Below are positions 16,699-26,386 of a stretch of 64,000 nt of DNA, in pieces. The stretch comes from Mesorhizobium loti. GTDB taxonomy: Bacteria > Pseudomonadota > Alphaproteobacteria > Rhizobiales > Rhizobiaceae. Made by a program: the position numbers and the translations under genes. The notes below the pieces were generated by a model that made no database searches, had not been told where the DNA came from, and saw nothing but the letters and a program-made list of their open reading frames with translations. The stretch is from the NCBI GenBank assembly GCA_002356515.1, contig AP017605.1:248001-312000 (forward strand), in the 5' to 3' direction. Numbering within the stretch: the first letter of the stretch is position 1; every line of letters begins with the position of its first letter.

Positions 16699-18108
16699 TT
16701 AGACTGAGTAGTACATGTCGTATTCGACCGGATGCGGGGTCATTTCGAAGCGCATCACTTCGGCCATCTTCAGCTCGATATAGCTGTCGATCTGGTCGTC
16801 GTCGAAGACGCCGCCGGCCTTCAGGAAGCCGCGGTCCTTGTCGAGGCTCTGCAGGGCTTCACGCAGTGAGCCGCAGACGGTCGGAATCTTCTTCAGCTCC
16901 TTCGGCGGCAGGTCGTAGAGATCCTTGTCCATCGGCTGGCCGGGATGGATCTTGTTCTTGATGCCGTCGAGGCCGGCCATCAGCATGGCGGCGAAGGCGA
17001 GGTAGGGGTTCGCGCCCGGATCGGGGAAGCGGACCTCGACGCGCTTGGCCTTCGGAGACGAGCCGAACGGAATGCGGCAGGAGGCCGAGCGGTTGCGCGC
17101 CGAATAGGCGAGCAGCACCGGCGCTTCGTAGCCGGGCACCAGACGCTTGTAGGAGTTGGTCAGCGGGTTGGTGAAGGCGTTGATCGCCTTGGCGTGCTTG
17201 ATGATGCCGCCGATGTAGAACAGGCAGGTTTCCGACAGGCCGGCATATTCATTGCCGGCGAAGGTCGGCTTGCCGCCCTTCCAGATCGACTGGTGGACGT
17301 GCATGCCCGAGCCGTTGTCGCCGAAGATCGGCTTCGGCATGAAGGTGGCCGTCTTGCCGTAGGCGTTGGCGACCTGGTGCACGACATACTTGTAGATCAG
17401 CATCTTGTCGGCGTTGCGGACCAGCGTGTCGAACTTGATGCCGAGTTCATGCTGGGCGGCGGCGACCTCGTGGTGATGCTTTTCGACGCGCACGCCCATT
17501 TCGGCGAGCACGGTCAGCATCTCGGAGCGCATGTCCTGCGCGCTGTCGATCGGCGGCACCGGGAAATAGCCGCCCTTGACGCGCGGACGGTGGCCGAGAT
17601 TGCCGGTCTCGTAGTCGGTGTCGTCGTTCGACGGCAGTTCGGTGGAGTCCAGCTTGAACCCGGTGTTGTAGGGATCGGCCTTGTACTTGACGTCGTCGAA
17701 CACGAAGAACTCGGCTTCCGGGCCGACATAGATGGTGTCGCCGATGCCTTCCGCCTTCATATAGGCCTCGGCCTTCTTGGCCGTGCCGCGCGGGTCGCGG
17801 TTGTAGGATTCGCCCGAGACCGGATCAAGAATGTCGCACAGGATGACCATGGTCGACTGGGCGAAGAACGGGTCCATATGGACGGTGTCCGGATCGGGCA
17901 TCAGCACCATGTCGGACTCGTTGATGGCCTTCCAGCCGGCAATCGAGGAGCCGTCGAACATGACGCCATCGGCAAACATGTCTTCCTCGACCTCGACGAC
18001 ATCCATCGTTACGTGCTGCAGCTTGCCCTTCGGGTCGGTGAAGCGCAGGTCGACGAATTTCACGTCGTTGTCCTTGATCTGCTTCATGATGTCTTTGGCT
18101 GTCGTCAT
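16699..18108 (-). CDS. glnA: Glutamine synthetase type I
   Basis: 469 residues from the ATG at 18108; the frame is open upstream into the glnB spacer, but the family starts at [20 protein letters not shown]. It condenses glutamate and ammonia using ATP as a dodecamer. Key parts: [48 protein letters not shown], and NRSASCRIP. The adenylylation tyrosine is Tyr398 in KDLYDLPP, so activity is controlled by GlnE. It lies 61 bases downstream of glnB in a glnBA operon, the usual rhizobial arrangement. Confidence 0.98.
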
Positions 18109-18169
18109 GTCATGTATCCCTGTTTGATGACGTTTTTTGATGGATGACGTTTCTTGGAGGATGGTCGCG

Positions 18170-18863
<694 letters not shown>

Positions 18864-20402
18864 ATGAGCGATGAACTTCTTACCTCCGCCGAAATGGGCG
18901 AGGCAGACCGGCTGGCGATTGCCGCCGGCCCGGTCGATGGTATCGGCCTGATGCGCCGCGCCGGCGAAGCGGTCGCGGCCGAGATTCTCAGGCATTATCC
19001 CTCAGCGACACATGTCCACGTGCTGTGTGGTCCCGGCAACAATGGCGGCGACGGCTATGTCGTCGCCCGCATCCTGGCTGGCAGCGGCGTCGCCACCACG
19101 GTCTGGACGTCCGGTGCGCCGAGGCCGCAAAGCGACGCGGCACTCGCCGCGGCGGAGTGCCCGATCGCGCCCCGGCCGCTGTCCGGCTTTGTAGCCGAGC
19201 CCGGCTCGATTGTGGTCGATGCGCTTTACGGGGCCGGGCTGTCCAAGCCACTGTCCGGCGATGCCGCCAGGGCGGTCGGCATCGCCACCGATAGGCGTTT
19301 GCCAGTTGTCGCGGTTGATCTGCCCTCGGGCGTTTCCGGCGACAGCGGCAAAGTATTGGGCGTGGCATTTACCGCTATCACCACAGTGACCTTTGCGCGC
19401 AAGAAGCCCGGCCATCTGCTGCTGCCGGGCCGGGAGCGATGCGGCGAGATCGTGCTGGCCGATATCGGCATCGGCGACGACATCATTGCACAGCTCCAGC
19501 CCAGGGCGTTCGAGAACAGGCCGGCGCATTGGCTGCGCGATTTTCCGATTCCGGCAGTCGACGCGCACAAATACAAGCGCGGCCATGTCGGCGTCTTTTC
19601 CGGCGGGCCGAGCGCCACCGGTGCGGCGCGGCTGTCGGCGCTTGCCGCGGCCCGAAGCGGGGCAGGGGCGGTGACCGTGCTGTCGCCCGGCAACGCCATG
19701 CAGGTCAATGCCGCCCATCTGACCTCGATCATGCTGCGCAAGACGGATGACGTGTCAGACATCAGGGAGTTTGTCGGCGAGCGCCGGCCTTCGGCCTTCG
19801 TTCTTGGCCCCGGCTTTGGCGTCGGGGAGAGAACGCGGACCTTTGGACTTGCGCTCCTCGCCTCCGGCCAACCGCAGGGTGCTTCCGCACAGGTCGATGG
19901 CCTCGTATTCGACGCCGACGCGATCACCGCGTTTCGCGAGGCGCCGGAAATCTTGTTCGAAGCAGCGCGCGGGCCGCATGCGCCGGCCCTGGTGATGACG
20001 CCGCATGAGGGTGAGTTCGCCAGGCTGTTTCCCGACATCGCTGCTGACGATACTCCGTCCAAGCTGGACAAGGCGCGCGCGGCGGCCGCACGTGCCAATA
20101 CAGTTATCGTCTACAAGGGCGCCGACACGGTGATCGCCGCTCCCGACGGCAGGGCGGCGATCAATACCAATGGCGCGGCCTGGCTTGCCACTGCCGGATC
20201 AGGAGACGTGCTGTCAGGCATCACCGCCGGGCTGCTGGCGCAAGCCATGCCGGCGTTCGAAGCAGCGTGTGCGGCGGTGTGGATCCATGCCGAGACCGGC
20301 AGCCGGTTCGGTCCTGGGCTGATCGCCGAGGATCTGCCGCTGGCGCTGGTGTCGGTGCTGCGCGAACTGGTCGAAGCACGTTGCAAGGTGCTCGTCGAAT
20401 GA
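18864..20402 (+). CDS. nnr: Bifunctional NAD(P)H-hydrate epimerase / ADP-dependent NAD(P)H-hydrate dehydratase
   Basis: 512 residues, the length of the fused enzyme. The N-terminal YjeF epimerase half (to about residue 215) has CGPGNNGGDGYVVARILAG and VDLPSGVSGD. The C-terminal kinase-like dehydratase half has HKYKRGHVGVFSGG, DADAITAF, MTPHEGEFARLFP and the ATGSGDVLSG-like loop (LATAGSGDVLSGI). It repairs damaged nicotinamide cofactors in the cytoplasm. It is divergent from glnBA. Its stop overlaps the next start (ATGA), so the two are translationally coupled. Confidence 0.95.
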   Translation: MSDELLTSAEMGEADRLAIAAGPVDGIGLMRRAGEAVAAEILRHYPSATHVHVLCGPGNNGGDGYVVARILAGSGVATTVWTSGAPRPQSDAALAAAECPIAPRPLSGFVAEPGSIVVDALYGAGLSKPLSGDAARAVGIATDRRLPVVAVDLPSGVSGDSGKVLGVAFTAITTVTFARKKPGHLLLPGRERCGEIVLADIGIGDDIIAQLQPRAFENRPAHWLRDFPIPAVDAHKYKRGHVGVFSGGPSATGAARLSALAAARSGAGAVTVLSPGNAMQVNAAHLTSIMLRKTDDVSDIREFVGERRPSAFVLGPGFGVGERTRTFGLALLASGQPQGASAQVDGLVFDADAITAFREAPEILFEAARGPHAPALVMTPHEGEFARLFPDIAADDTPSKLDKARAAAARANTVIVYKGADTVIAAPDGRAAINTNGAAWLATAGSGDVLSGITAGLLAQAMPAFEAACAAVWIHAETGSRFGPGLIAEDLPLALVSVLRELVEARCKVLVE

Positions 20403-22399
20403 AGCGTTTCGCGCTCGCCATTGCGACCGTCATCGCGCTGTTCGCATCGCATGGCGTGCGCGCCGAGCAGCCGGTGACCATCGTCGACGATCCGGCAGTC
20501 CTCGCCGCCCTCGATGCCAAGGGTTTTGGCTTCGCCGGCATTTTCGGCGCCGATGGCGCCGGCGACCTGAAGGCGCTCTATGACAAGGTGCCGGCCTATC
20601 ATGCGATCGTCGATACGGTGGCATCAGACATCGCCACGCTGCGGGCCGAGATGAAGGCCGGCGGGCGCACGCTCTATGAGGTGACCGACGGCAATGTCGG
20701 CCGCATCATGGATATGCGCTGGCTGAAGACCGAGGCAGCGCGCTTCCGTCTGGTCGGCGTCGTCAATCGGCTCGACCGGCGCGATTTCGCTGCCTTGGAA
20801 GGCGACAAGAGCTGCGGCGAGGTGCGTTTCATCTATCGCCTGGCCTATAGTTTCAAGAAGGACGACAAGCTCCTGGCCTCGCGGCTGCCGTTCAACTTCA
20901 ACGCGGTCTACAGTGCGGCACCCGATGCCGATGGTGGTTGTGTCGGTGTTGCAGGACGCTGGACGCCGCAACTCAATGAGCACGTCGACGCCGGCTGGCT
21001 GAGCGGCGGGCCGCTGGAACCGGCCGAGTTGACCTTCAAGCAGCTCGAACTCAATGCACAAATTGTGCGCTTTCCCTCGGGCCAGGAGACCGAGTTCGGC
21101 GGGCAGGCCGCCTATCTCATGCGGATATTCGGCATCGATGGCGCTACCGTCAGCGAGAAGCCGCTCGAGAACACGCCGGACATTGGGCGACTTTCGATAG
21201 ACGCGGCGTTGAAGAAAAAGCTCGCCGACTATGTCAATGCCAATGTCGCGTCGGTCGATCTCGGCGTCTACGAACTCCCCGACGCATTCCTGGCAAAAAA
21301 GATCATCTCGTGGTCGACCTTCGGCAGTGCACGGCAGGCCAACCATCCGTTTACGCAAATATTCCAACCCAAGGAACTCGGATCGCTCGATTATTCCTCG
21401 ATGAAGCTGGTGCGCACGCCGGAGGCGCTGGTCGAGCGGCTGGACAATGGCGCTTGTCAGGGCTGCCATCAGGCGGGTTCCACGGCCGGCTTCCACTTCA
21501 TCGGCCTCGACGACAAAACGACGTCGCCACTCAACCGCATCGAGGTCGGCATCTCGCCGCATCTCCATGCCGAGATTCCCCGGCGCCAGGCCTGGCTGCG
21601 CGCAACGCAACAAGGCAAGGAGCCGAACCGCTACCGGCCGCTGTCCTTCGCACCGCCAGCCACCTGGACCGATACCGGCGACGTCGACTACGCGCCGGCG
21701 GAAATGGCGATGCCGTGCCTGATGCCGGAGGACGCTAAGCGTTTCGGCGCGACTTGGGCATGCGGCGGCGGCACGGTCTGCACGCCGCTGGCAACCGCGT
21801 CAGGCGTGCGCACCACTCTGGCGCAATGTCTGTTGCCCAAGGACGGCCCAAAAATGTTCTCCGGCCATCCCTGCCTGACCGGGTCGATTGCCAGCAACCA
21901 GTCGCAGCCCTTTAATGACCGCTACACGATATCAGGCCAGTTCGCAGCCTTCGCGCCGGGGATTTCGCGGACCGCCTACACCTGCCGGCCACCGAAGATC
22001 GGCGTGCCGGCCGGCATCGCTTACCGCGCCTGTGACGACAAGGACCGCAGCTTTGCCGCCTTCAAGAAGGGCAAGCCGATGCCGAATGAAATCTGCGGGC
22101 TGGTCGGCGGCAAGAAATTCGACACTTGCGTGGCGACCAACAATTTCGACCAGTGCCTCGGCGGCGCGGTCAATCGCGGCAACCGGCCGGCCTGCTCGGC
22201 CGATCATTTCTGCCGCGAGGACTATATGTGCCAGTCGCTGCCGCCGGACACGCCGGGTGCTGCTAAAGTGAAAGGCATCGGCTTCTGCTCGCCGACCTAT
22301 TTCATCTTCCAGATGCGTATCGACAACCACGCAACACCCTGGGCGAGCGCGACCAGCGTGCCCAGGGACGCGGGGTTCGGCGCGGCCGAGGCGGAGTAG
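20399..22399 (+). CDS. Secreted cysteine-rich protein with a single CXXCH motif, function unknown
   Basis: 666 residues from the ATG at 20399, which overlaps the nnr stop by four bases. A signal peptide is clear (MKRFALAIATVIALFASHGVRAE), so the product is periplasmic or exported. A haem-c-type motif CQGCH lies at about residues 353-357 (DNGACQGCHQAGSTAGFHF). The C-terminal third holds about fifteen more cysteines (WACGGGTVC, SADHFCREDYMCQS, GFCSP), suggesting several disulfides. The N-terminal half (VNRLDRRDF, CGEVRFIYRL) is not recognised. It could be a cytochrome-like redox protein or a secreted enzyme. Coupling to nnr may be only positional. Confidence 0.8.
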   Translation: MKRFALAIATVIALFASHGVRAEQPVTIVDDPAVLAALDAKGFGFAGIFGADGAGDLKALYDKVPAYHAIVDTVASDIATLRAEMKAGGRTLYEVTDGNVGRIMDMRWLKTEAARFRLVGVVNRLDRRDFAALEGDKSCGEVRFIYRLAYSFKKDDKLLASRLPFNFNAVYSAAPDADGGCVGVAGRWTPQLNEHVDAGWLSGGPLEPAELTFKQLELNAQIVRFPSGQETEFGGQAAYLMRIFGIDGATVSEKPLENTPDIGRLSIDAALKKKLADYVNANVASVDLGVYELPDAFLAKKIISWSTFGSARQANHPFTQIFQPKELGSLDYSSMKLVRTPEALVERLDNGACQGCHQAGSTAGFHFIGLDDKTTSPLNRIEVGISPHLHAEIPRRQAWLRATQQGKEPNRYRPLSFAPPATWTDTGDVDYAPAEMAMPCLMPEDAKRFGATWACGGGTVCTPLATASGVRTTLAQCLLPKDGPKMFSGHPCLTGSIASNQSQPFNDRYTISGQFAAFAPGISRTAYTCRPPKIGVPAGIAYRACDDKDRSFAAFKKGKPMPNEICGLVGGKKFDTCVATNNFDQCLGGAVNRGNRPACSADHFCREDYMCQSLPPDTPGAAKVKGIGFCSPTYFIFQMRIDNHATPWASATSVPRDAGFGAAEAE

Positions 22400-22571
22400 G
22401 GGTTCGATTGTCCTGCGCGGCACTTGATACCCAAGTGTCCTGAGGTTCTCTGAACAGGGCCTTTGCCAACCCACCGATTGTTCGGCCACAATCTACCGTC
22501 GCTCCAACGGTCACGTGGACTTGGGTGGGTAGCACTTCAACTCGGTATTTGGCTTAGTCGTTTCAGTAAAT

Positions 22572-23186
22572 TCATGGAACCTGCACCTCGATAGCGTCAA
22601 CGATAGCTATTCCCTCGAAGAGGATTTCGGGCTCTTTCTGATCACGGGCCTTGCCGGCCCAGTACTCGGAAGCCCGATGTAGGCTCACGGAATAAGGTTC
22701 ACTGTCCTTCATCAGAAGAGCAGCATCCGTTCGGAATACCTTGCCTGTTGCCCGAAGGCTGAAGATCGTAGCGGGTCCGCCCAAGATCTTAGACCACTCC
22801 AAAGCTTGGCCCAGTGTGTCGGTTGTCCAGAGGGACTTCATCCTTGAAGGTGCGTCAGCAGCTTCCTTCATACGCACAATTTCCATCAACAGTTCACGGC
22901 TTAGGTTCTTGAAATGATTGGCGGTATCCCAAGCCATCTTTGGTAGGGCCGCTGTAGCAAATTCTCCCTTTTGGATTCGAAACAGCAACTCGACGGCTGG
23001 CACCATTTGCTGCTTTCCGTTGATTGGAACGCTAAAAGCCACTGGCCGTTCGAAGGAACCGAAGAATGAATTGTGAGCAGGCCCGGCTTCAATGATTGAT
23101 CCTACGGTCATAGCCGGACGCTCGTTGTAGGTCAGAGCCGTGCGCGCAACGTGGAATAATTCGACATCCACAACACGTTCCAGCAT
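22572..23186 (-). CDS. Unknown protein, possibly DUF2441 family; last gene of the nuclease operon
   Basis: 204 residues. The opening (ERVVDVELFHVARTALTYN) followed by GSIIEAGPAHNSFFG and, near the end, VSLHRASEYWAGK recalls DUF2441-type proteins, whose N-terminal layout is somewhat like ADP-ribosyltransferase toxins; this link is tentative. No signal peptide or membrane helix is seen. It begins 9 bases after the 83-residue gene. It sits in the AT-richer stretch between two GC-rich housekeeping blocks and is read in the same direction as the nuclease gene. Confidence 0.6.
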   Translation of the reverse strand: MLERVVDVELFHVARTALTYNERPAMTVGSIIEAGPAHNSFFGSFERPVAFSVPINGKQQMVPAVELLFRIQKGEFATAALPKMAWDTANHFKNLSRELLMEIVRMKEAADAPSRMKSLWTTDTLGQALEWSKILGGPATIFSLRATGKVFRTDAALLMKDSEPYSVSLHRASEYWAGKARDQKEPEILFEGIAIVDAIEVQVP

Positions 23187-23195
23187 TTTCGCGCC

Positions 23196-23447
23196 TCAGC
23201 CAGGACCGCTGTTTATCATACGCCAATATTCGTTGATCTCGGTTTCAAACCAGCCTGAGGCTTCGGTGTCCGTCCCGACATTCGATCGGAAGTTCAGGTA
23301 GTGTGAAAAATGCTTTCCCTCTAGCCAGGTCTTGAAGGTGCCAAAATTGGGATAGTGCCCGGCCTTCTTCTGGTAGCCGGTTTCGCGCATCCACTCGAGC
23401 GCCAGACGCTCGATTGCTTCCTTCGCATCTGCTTTCTTGTGCATCAT
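23196..23447 (-). CDS. Small unknown protein, third gene of the nuclease operon
   Basis: 83 residues, acidic/basic mixed, no membrane segment. Its ATG (23445-23447) overlaps the stop of the previous gene in an ATGA arrangement, strong evidence that it is translated. The stretch AIERLALEWMRETGYQKKAG looks like an amphipathic helix; aromatic residues are frequent (HYPNFGTFKTWLEGKHFSHYLNF begins the central part). No family recognised. Confidence 0.6.
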   Translation of the reverse strand: MMHKKADAKEAIERLALEWMRETGYQKKAGHYPNFGTFKTWLEGKHFSHYLNFRSNVGTDTEASGWFETEINEYWRMINSGPG

Positions 23448-23635
23448 CGATCCGACCGGAGAAGCTGGCGGCCAACTGCGGTAATGACAGGTCCACCTAG
23501 CATTTGCTTAGCAACGCCCAGGTTGATGAGGTGCTCCAGATCCTTGGCGTCAACACTCAGGGCCATTCCACCTCTCTCCATCACTTTGAGAGCTTCGAGC
23601 TGTGAACTCGTAAGATTACTTTTGGTCAATCCCAC
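23444..23635 (-). CDS. Tiny winged-helix-like protein, second gene of the nuclease operon
   Basis: 63 residues if started at the GTG at 23635, which has GGAGGAG upstream inside the nuclease gene; TTG at 23629 is the alternative. The pattern LTSSQLEALKVM, then DLEHLINLGVA, then PVITAVGRQLL matches the spacing of a winged-helix domain (helix, recognition helix, wing, ITAxGRxLL) as in MarR-like proteins. It overlaps both neighbours: about 20 bases with the nuclease and 4 with the next gene. It may regulate the operon or be a DNA-binding partner. Confidence 0.5.
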   Translation of the reverse strand: MGLTKSNLTSSQLEALKVMERGGMALSVDAKDLEHLINLGVAKQMLGGPVITAVGRQLLRSDR

Positions 23636-24347
23636 CAGCCATCTCCTCCAGCTTCGGGCCACCCACCGCATCCAGTTTAGCCTCGAGTTCCGTCAGGAGC
23701 GGGTCCAACACCTCAACAACTTGCTGAGGGCCCTCCAAGAGTTCGGGAAGGTTGGGCCGAACATATCGCAGTAGAGAGTCGTTCAGGATAGGATAGCTTC
23801 CACGAAGAGCTTTCGCCAGAATTTCTGATGAGAACTCTACGATGCGCGCGCCCGAATACATGTCCCCGCCACCGCCGACATCGAACCGAAGCCCGTTTGC
23901 AATACGAACGTCCTTGGGAATATCCCAATATCTTGTACGAGCGATTTCCGTTCGATCAAATAAGTTACGAAGACGCACCGCATTGATCGCCTCTTTCGAG
24001 GACTCCGCCAGAGAAGCGAGTGATGTTACCTGCACATTTGTTAAGTTCGCAGCCTCAACTGCCCCGCTCTGGAATCCTTTTTCGCAAAGGATGATCCCTC
24101 GGTCAGCGCCGCATTCTGCAACGATCTGTCTCAAGCCCATGACGTGCAGCTTTGTGACAGGAGTGCTCCAGTGCTTGCACTCGACAAGCCACTTTATCTC
24201 AAATCCTCCTATGTCGATCGTTACAAACACGTCAATATCGTGTGGTGTTCTTACACCTTGAAGCCTGACGTCCGTGGCTGCCCTCAACCCAAGTGATCGG
24301 AAGAACTCGGCGGCCTCTTCCTGGTATTGCCTCCAGTCGGGAACCAT
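23616..24347 (-). CDS. Mrr-like PD-(D/E)XK restriction endonuclease, first gene of a four-gene operon
   Basis: 243 residues. The N-terminal 100 residues have the Mrr catalytic layout: YQEEAAEFFRSLG, then DVRLQGVRTPHDIDVFV with Asp39, and WLVECKHW with Glu56 and Lys58 giving the D...ExK site. IVAECGADRGIILCEKGFQS is the usual helix and strand after the core. Mrr-type nucleases cut modified or invading DNA. The C-terminal half (about 110-243) is not recognised and could sense a signal. Flanking genes overlap downstream. Base composition is lower in GC than the neighbours. Confidence 0.8.
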   Translation of the reverse strand: MVPDWRQYQEEAAEFFRSLGLRAATDVRLQGVRTPHDIDVFVTIDIGGFEIKWLVECKHWSTPVTKLHVMGLRQIVAECGADRGIILCEKGFQSGAVEAANLTNVQVTSLASLAESSKEAINAVRLRNLFDRTEIARTRYWDIPKDVRIANGLRFDVGGGGDMYSGARIVEFSSEILAKALRGSYPILNDSLLRYVRPNLPELLEGPQQVVEVLDPLLTELEAKLDAVGGPKLEEMAGGIDQK

Positions 24348-24464
24348 GGCGCGTCTTCCCGTTAAATTGCTTGCATCCAGTTAGAGGCGGTAACCCTCGG
24401 GGTAGTCAAGCCAATGGGCAACGCCTCTTGGCATCAGGCTTCGCGTCTCTTGGACAGTAAAACA

Positions 24465-25997
24465 CTACAGCGGAATGTTGTCGTGCTTCTTCCAGGGGTT
24501 CTGCATATCCTTGTTGCGCAGCATTCTGAGCGCGCGCGCAATACGGCGGCGGGTCGAGTGCGGCATGATCACCTCATCGACATAACCGCGTTCGGCGGCG
24601 ACGAAGGGCGACAGGAAGCGATCCTCGTAGGTCTTTGTATGGGCTGCGATCTTTTCGGCGTCACCAATGTCCTTGCGGTAGATGATCTCGACCGCGCCTC
24701 TGGCGCCCATGACCGCGATCTGCGCCGTCGGCCAGGCATAATTCATGTCGCCGCGCAGATGTTTCGACGCCATCACGTCATAGGCGCCGCCATAGGCTTT
24801 GCGGGTGATGACGGTGATCTTCGGCACGGTCGCTTCGGCATAGGCGAAAAGCAGCTTGGCGCCATGCTTGATCAGCCCGCCATATTCCTGCGCGGTGCCG
24901 GGCAGGAAGCCCGGCACATCGACGAAGGTGACGATCGGGATCGAGAAACAATCGCAAAAACGCACGAAGCGCGCCGCCTTGCGGCTGGCATCGGAATCGA
25001 GCACGCCGGCCAGCACCATCGGCTGGTTGGCGACGAAGCCGACCGTGCGGCCTTCGACGCGTCCGAAGCCGGTGACGATGTTCTTGGCGAAGCTCTGCTG
25101 GATTTCGAAGAAGTCACCTTCATCGGCGACCTTCAGGATCAGCTCCTTGATGTCGTAGGGCTTGTTGGCGTTGTCGGGGATCAGCCGGTCGAGCGACAAA
25201 TCATGGTCGGTGACCGACTGGTAGCATTCGATCTCGGGAATGTCAGATGTGTTCGACGCAGGCAGCAGATCGACCAGCCGGCGCATCTGCAAAAGCGCCT
25301 CGACGTCATTGTCATAGGCGCCGTCGGCGATCGAGGATTTCGTCGTGTGCACCGAGGCGCCACCGAGGCTTTCTGCGGTCACCGTCTCGTTGGTGACAGT
25401 CTTCACCACATCCGGGCCGGTGACGAACATGTAGGAGGTGTCGCGCACCATGAAGATGAAGTCGGTCATGGCGGGCGAATAGACGTCGCCGCCGGCGCAC
25501 GGGCCCATGATCACCGAAATCTGCGGAATGACGCCGGAGGCCAGCACATTGCGCTGGAAGATCTCGGCATAGCCGCCAAGGGCGGCCACGCCCTCCTGGA
25601 TGCGCGCGCCACCGGCATCATAGAGCCCGATGATCGGCGCGCGGTTGCGCAGCGCCATCTCCTGCACCTTGATGACCTTTTCGGCATGGGCTTCCGACAG
25701 CGACCCGCCGAACACAGTGAAATCCTTGGCGAAAAGGTAGACCGGGCGACCGTTGACCGTGCCCCAGCCGGTGACGACACCGTCGCCGGCGATCTTCGTC
25801 TTCTCCATGCCGAAATCGGTCGAGCGATGCTCGACATACATGTCGAATTCCTCGAACGAACCCTCGTCGAGAAACACCTCGATGCGCTCTCGCGCCGTGA
25901 GTTTGCCCTTCTTGTGCTGGGCATCGATGCGCGCCTGCCCGCCACCCATGCGGGCGATCTCACGCCGGCGCTCGAGTTCCTTCAGCACGTCCTTCAT
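24465..25997 (-). CDS. pccB: Propionyl-CoA (acyl-CoA) carboxylase beta subunit
   Basis: 510 residues from the ATG at 25997; the frame is open upstream but [20 protein letters not shown] is the family start. It transfers carboxyl from biotin to propionyl-CoA to form (S)-methylmalonyl-CoA. Carboxyltransferase marks: [67 protein letters not shown] and the C-terminal [18 protein letters not shown]. The biotin-carrying alpha subunit gene (pccA), often close by, is not in this window; the accessory operon lies downstream instead. Confidence 0.95.
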
Positions 25998-26386
25998 CGC
26001 TCGGTCCCCAGTGGAAGCTGCTTTGTGGTAATGATGCCCGCCAGGGAGCGCAAGCGTTGGCTTTTGACCGGTTTTTGCTGCACTGCAACATGACACCCCT
26101 TGCATTCCGAGGCGAACTCAGCCATATGCAGCCCATAGGCGCTTGGGCCGGGAGATTCCGGCCTTCTCGACAAATGAGACTGGTTGCGTCTGTTTTCCCT
26201 CTTTCCGGCAAATCGGTAAGGCGGCGAAAAAAGCCCCGTGGCATGATGCCTGCGGGCACGACAGCGCAGCCGAGTGGACGATACCGTCCGCCCGCCTTGT
26301 CGTTCCATATCAAATTTTTCGACGGCAGGTTGCGCCCTGCCGCCATTGATGTTTGCGGCCATAGAGCCGCGTGAAAGAAGATTATT
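25998..26386. other. 389-base divergent intergenic region between pccB and the DEAD-box helicase
   Basis: Short frames exist but none is supported. The DNA must contain the promoters of both genes; no convincing -35/-10 or sigma-54 pair was seen. The half next to the helicase could be a long leader, as seen for some DEAD-box helicase genes induced by cold. Confidence 0.35.

Follow-up and report, generated by a model that had tools for sequence, protein, structure and literature searches.

An acquired four-gene island beside pccB in Mesorhizobium loti, with an Mrr_cat nuclease as a candidate defence gene

In a stretch of 64,000 nucleotides of Mesorhizobium loti (GenBank assembly GCA_002356515.1, contig AP017605.1, positions 248,001 to 312,000), to which we refer as the window, four minus-strand genes occupy a short insert next to pccB; a first, sequence-only reading had proposed these genes as a defence module led by an Mrr-like nuclease. 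The explanation that we favour, and that we hold to be moderately probable, is that of an accessory island centred on a solitary Mrr_cat endonuclease (gene 1) that would cut foreign DNA, with the other three genes (genes 2, 3 and 4) riding along. The short island would have been gained by one Mesorhizobium lineage; gene 1 would cut the DNA of phages, plasmids or other elements without a neighbouring methyltransferase, its specificity likely being provided by its helical C-terminal half; genes 2-4 would share one transcript with gene 1, gene 2 being a probable regulator, gene 3 an orphan small protein, and gene 4 an ADP-ribosyltransferase-clan protein of separate origin. We infer the nuclease activity, the foreign-DNA target, the single transcript and the dispensability of genes 2-4 for the nuclease action; taken alone, gene 1 makes a reasonable candidate for defence.

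The features of the locus are the following:

20399..22399, plus strand: left flank, a 666-amino-acid product that starts at an internal ATG of a 710-amino-acid open reading frame (ORF 20267-22399).
22400..24464, no strand: the insert, 2,065 bp, located between two convergent 3' ends, with a guanine-plus-cytosine (GC) content of 53.3%, as delimited by comparison with relatives.
22572..23186, minus strand: gene 4, a DUF2441 protein of 204 amino acids, from the ADP-ribosyltransferase clan of Pfam (Pfam match; relative of PDB 2aua).
23196..23444, minus strand: gene 3, an orphan protein of 82 amino acids without a family match (homologue searches).
23444..23635, minus strand: gene 2, a small protein of 63 amino acids with a GTG start, which looks winged-helix-like by its sequence pattern.
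23616..24347, minus strand: gene 1, an Mrr_cat nuclease of the PD-(D/E)xK type, 243 amino acids (Pfam match; D39/E56/K58).
24465..26105, minus strand: right flank, a core carboxyl transferase gene (pccB-like), whose 3' end is found in the genomes of the genus.

The insert, which fills the whole interval between the stop codons of the left gene (22399) and of pccB (24465), is acquired DNA and not part of the core genome, because it is poor in GC, its site is nearly empty in 22 of 48 compared relatives, and the insert itself is matched in none of the 48 (E value threshold 1e-4). The AT-richer composition that had been noted earlier is borne out by the GC contents of the four genes (52.6-53.3%) against those of pccB (61.4%) and of the left-flank ORF (63.9%), as well as by the GC content at third codon positions, which is 53-66% in the four genes and 78-80% in the flanks. 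Among all stretches of 2,065 bp in the window, a fraction of 0.001 is equally GC-poor, and these stretches overlap the insert itself; the region 22031-24973 is the only one in the window with 2,065-bp stretches at or below 55% GC.

The 3' end of pccB has been found in all 146 genomes of the genus (in G013 and G120 only at E values of 1e-4 to 1e-3), and the site has been compared in 48 of the 145 other genomes, i.e. in 40 of the first 43 with a pccB match and in eight that hold the left flank; the selection of these eight favours comparable sites. The flanks are collinear in the relatives, with 13-42 bp between them in the 22 near-empty sites and 115 bp in one further genome. Eleven genomes carry other DNA at the site (624-2,241 bp, GC content of 57-66%), with a gene that is peptidase-like or glycosyltransferase-like, as named by the look of the sequences; in two genomes, the left flank is partly aligned and the gap is not measurable, and in the remaining 12, the left flank is not within the 4 kb that were taken. 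The content of the site varies by species (L088, L092, L094, L095, L143, L148, L149, L159, L164, L165 and L166). The insert is present as a single copy in its own genome, its ends show no convincing terminal inverted or direct repeats, no transposase or integrase occurs among the four genes in Pfam, NCBIfam, PADLOC and PHROGs scans, and no tRNA gene lies within the 64-kb window. Together with the occurrence of gene 1 in two of the 146 genomes, these comparisons set aside the possibility that the four genes are always core genes next to pccB; the island shows how a short interval between two core genes can come to hold a compact set of small accessory genes that differ in origin.

Gene 1 belongs to a large mobile nuclease family with an invariant catalytic centre, a family that PADLOC models touch only weakly. 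Its product matches the Pfam family Mrr_cat (PF04471) with 45.2 bits, against a curated cut-off of 21, and a protein search has returned 1,365 matching proteins; among the best 120 of these, the nearest relatives are 60-76% identical to it. The predicted centre Asp39, Glu56 and Lys58 is indeed there: it is complete in 180 of the 183 rows of the family alignment, from which L001, L002 and P0001 are left out, and it is never replaced, the other three rows being incomplete, with gaps at these positions. The predicted structure has a mean predicted local distance difference test (pLDDT) score of 89.9 and a helical C-terminal half; residues 1-118 match, in structure comparison, 1y88, EndoMS/NucS, nucleases of the Can2/Card1 type, AspBHI, FokI and MspJI, and few rows of that comparison reach the C-terminal half. 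The nuclease fold is therefore certain; the substrate does not appear to be fixed by the fold.

Among characterised or catalogued proteins, the closest in plan are the solitary Mrr_cat proteins known as 'restriction endonuclease', which have in common with gene 1 the catalytic domain, the D-ExK centre and a length of about 230 amino acids; most of them lack the C-terminal extension of gene 1, whose last residues continue beyond the point where most relatives stop, in the part of the gene that overlaps gene 2. The modification-dependent enzymes MspJI and AspBHI share with gene 1 the fold of the nuclease domain, over residues 1-118 only, and AF1548 (PDB 1y88), entitled as a protein of unknown function, is 18% identical to it over 111 residues. 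As would be expected of a type IV (modification-dependent) restriction enzyme, no cognate methyltransferase occurs beside gene 1, in a search that covered the four genes and their two flanking genes. The PADLOC candidate PDC-S02 is weakly matched by 10 of 29 aligned family members, at best with an E value of 2.5e-6 and within the nuclease stretch; its models are longer than gene 1 (346 and 390 positions), and gene 1 fails at the threshold of E 0.001.

The closest relative of gene 1 occurs in Mesorhizobium sp. AR10, elsewhere in the genome, with a phage-type integrase 2.4 kb away and without genes 2-4. The two copies are 82, 88 and 41% identical at the first, second and third codon positions, with a non-synonymous divergence (dN) of 0.16 and an undefined synonymous divergence (dS), which points to strong selection on the gene 1 protein. 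Further relatives have been found in 40 of 72,556 plasmid records, six of them covering at least 80% of the length, one adjoining a type I restriction system and one adjoining conjugation genes; relatives also occur on five viral contigs, and the phage records contain no gene 1 match. It has to be considered whether the island is passive cargo, a chance set of accessory genes without a present function, as could be suggested by the occurrence of the full set in a single genome and by the separate relatives of each piece. We regard this as very improbable: the four frames are intact and overlapping, the conserved residues of genes 1, 3 and 4 are largely kept, and the gene 1 protein is well conserved with respect to its nearest relative where the third codon positions are not.

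The neighbourhoods of gene 1 relatives have provided a more general result. In seven of the 58 genome loci (L021, L027, L028, L029, L032, L039 and L053, from two phyla), the relative is located 43-4,618 bp from a block of thymidylate synthase (TS)-like, aGPT-Pplase3/ADDT, M78 and HigB-like genes; all four block genes are present in all seven loci, full-length or nearly so, and their order within the block does not vary; the nuclease lies on the TS side of the block in six of the loci and on the HigB side in L021. The family names of the block were assigned from L053 and L029. In L053 the HigB match falls short of the Pfam cut-off, and in L021 the small gene is not matched by Pfam at all; the HigB-like name is given because the small genes are alike among the seven loci. 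In the tree of the family, built on the 65 loci minus 14 (the window's own and those that were weak, short, broken or near-duplicates) plus seven database proteins, four of the seven block loci are close kin, one block locus, L039, is among the two longest branches, and the block label needs four changes (gains or losses), so that either several origins or several losses account for the link between nuclease and block. In the available text of PMC13092281, the DefensePredictor study has aGPT-Pplase as a domain for which a defence role is predicted but not validated; a thymidylate synthase belongs to the defence domains that it newly validates. The same text names aGPT-Pplase and no Mrr gene. 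The repeated location of the nuclease beside a nucleotide-modification block offers a direct test of the role of the family.

On this basis, a bolder proposal can be framed, to which we assign a slender chance: the gene 1 family might be the restriction arm of an uncharacterised system of modified thymidine nucleotides in Bacteroidota, Alpha- and Betaproteobacteria, and the island might be a re-wired descendant, in which a small winged-helix protein would control the nuclease and an ADP-ribosyltransferase-clan protein would be its partner. The genome of the window differs from the aGPT-Pplase systems in that its nuclease has no block: aGPT-Pplase3 has no match there, under conditions in which three of three positive-control genomes match and none of 14 well-known genomes does.

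Other neighbours of gene 1 relatives have been scanned in 115 frames, i.e. in 113 hand-chosen frames out of 208 candidates and in two frames of the L021 block, and the family tallies of neighbours rest on the top 25 families by frequency, out of 227 and out of 83. Three frames match PADLOC models of reverse transcriptases (two of them Drt8), one matches an ABC-3C component, one matches a Schlafen-type helicase and three are phage-type integrases. The neighbourhood evidence for gene 1 is descriptive.

Several observations weigh against a foreign-DNA nuclease as the core of the island. The case for a defence role of gene 1 is indirect; the best PADLOC match of the window's own gene 1 is PDC-S02 at an E value of only 0.015; most loci of gene 1 relatives have diverse neighbours, including housekeeping genes (HSP90, dehydrogenases); and neither flanking gene is a defence gene, the scan for such genes not extending over the remainder of the window. 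Furthermore, that the four genes are packed so tightly suggests that they were selected together, and a solitary nuclease with passengers leaves this unexplained. Finally, repair nucleases (EndoMS/NucS) are found among the structure matches, so a role in repair or recombination is possible.

This last point is the basis of an alternative in which gene 1 is an enzyme of DNA repair or element maintenance, structure- or mismatch-specific like EndoMS/NucS or AF1548, that resides on mobile DNA and does not act in restriction. The top three VIA-align matches of gene 1 are 1y88 and two chains of EndoMS/NucS, and the phage-type integrases near relatives, including the one beside the nearest relative, and the conjugation genes are in line with element maintenance. 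A common fold, however, says nothing of function, and the patchy presence of gene 1 within the genus and the link of its family to the nucleotide-modification block both argue against this alternative, which we consider to be unlikely.

Whether the four genes form one unit is a separate question. The overlapping or near-touching arrangement that had been described holds in the ORF coordinates: genes 1 and 2 overlap by 20 nt, gene 2 ends in a stop codon that shares bases with the gene 3 start, and 9 nt separate genes 3 and 4. These junctions, which suggest coupled translation, and the low GC content common to all four genes are what a single four-part defence system would lead one to expect, with the nuclease as effector, gene 2 as a DNA-binding sensor or repressor, gene 3 as a partner and gene 4 as an ADP-ribosyltransferase that would mark or block the target. 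Among the ORFs of at least 30 amino acids in the 58 genome loci (32 of them with full flanks) and the five viral loci of gene 1, however, none resembles gene 2, 3 or 4 (E value threshold 0.01), and the three are also absent beside the closest gene 1 relative; this survey does not extend to the loci around the closest gene 3 relatives or around the second to twelfth closest relatives of gene 1. Relatives of genes 2, 3 and 4 have been seen only separately, and, as far as we have searched, the four genes are not conserved together elsewhere. Co-occurrence lends no support to a four-part system, for which tight packing is the main argument, and we find such a system unlikely. Of the earlier proposal, what stands is a genuine Mrr_cat nuclease on acquired DNA, from a family with mobile and some defence-like contexts and with some members, gene 1 itself not among them, that weakly match PDC-S02; its joining of the four genes into one system is not supported.

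Gene 4, which had been described as possibly DUF2441-like and 204 residues long, matches DUF2441 (PF10386) with an E value of 3.1e-13 (50.3 bits against a cut-off of 25), and the likeness to this family extends to PDB 2aua, both as a single sequence (E value 1.4e-10) and as a profile with three relatives (2.4e-23); DUF2441 is included in the ADP-ribosyltransferase clan of Pfam, according to the available text of PMC7955679, which assigns no activity to the family. The predicted model of gene 4, built on three sequences (pLDDT 51), is too poor for a fold search. The gene is present in none of 140 other genomes and a protein search returns only itself; a translated search has found relatives on four plasmids and in the prophage phiES15. 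Two phage DUF2441 proteins, used as queries, match two viral contigs, one of which is phiES15 itself; no relatives appear on the viral contigs with the gene 4 alignment or with two plasmid DUF2441 proteins as queries. On one plasmid (L116, 1404-4450), the DUF2441 gene adjoins, and is divergent from, a Septu-like PtuA/PtuB pair, and the prophage also carries a kinase that matches the PD-T4-6 and mad6 models; these surroundings would suit a four-part system, but on the plasmids and phage examined the DUF2441 relatives occur without genes 1-3.

Gene 3 has no Pfam, NCBIfam, PADLOC or PHROGs family match. The protein collection contains five close relatives, with 61-72% identity over the aligned part; distant relatives occur in seven other genomes of the 397 of the order (the weakest, at E 8e-4, may be due to chance), in one other genome of the genus and on four plasmids, with none on viral contigs or in phage records. 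In nine loci, a set that does not cover the five close relatives, gene 3 relatives have no gene 1, 2 or 4 beside them, which also speaks against a four-part system. The length of 83 residues reported earlier applies if translation begins at an ATG three bases upstream; the start is most likely the second of the two ATGs, as in the relatives, which gives 82.

Gene 2, whose length of about 63 residues agrees with the 63 counted from the GTG, probably encodes a winged-helix-like protein. It has a match in eight of the 397 genomes of the order, its own included; the other seven, all of one other genus, contain near full-length relatives that are 31-37% identical, and the start site in these relatives is the same as that of the window's GTG (23635), upstream of which a purine-rich GGAGGAG can be read by eye. 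No gene 2 match has been found among the plasmid records, the phage records not having been searched. Weak matches of the genes in PADLOC, PHROGs, Pfam and NCBIfam (e.g. Cmr3, CARF, DUF3383) have been rejected as noise.

An Rfam search of the insert for small RNAs has given no match up to an E value of 1; the insert contains one promoter-like site (1.0 expected) and five terminator-like sites (2.6 expected, standard deviation 1.6). The 666-amino-acid product of the left flank matches no Pfam or NCBIfam family; read by eye, its sequence shows a haem-type CxxCH motif and begins like a signal peptide. A second, milder dip in GC content (about 56-57%) lies at 18000-19000 of the window, upstream of the left flank.
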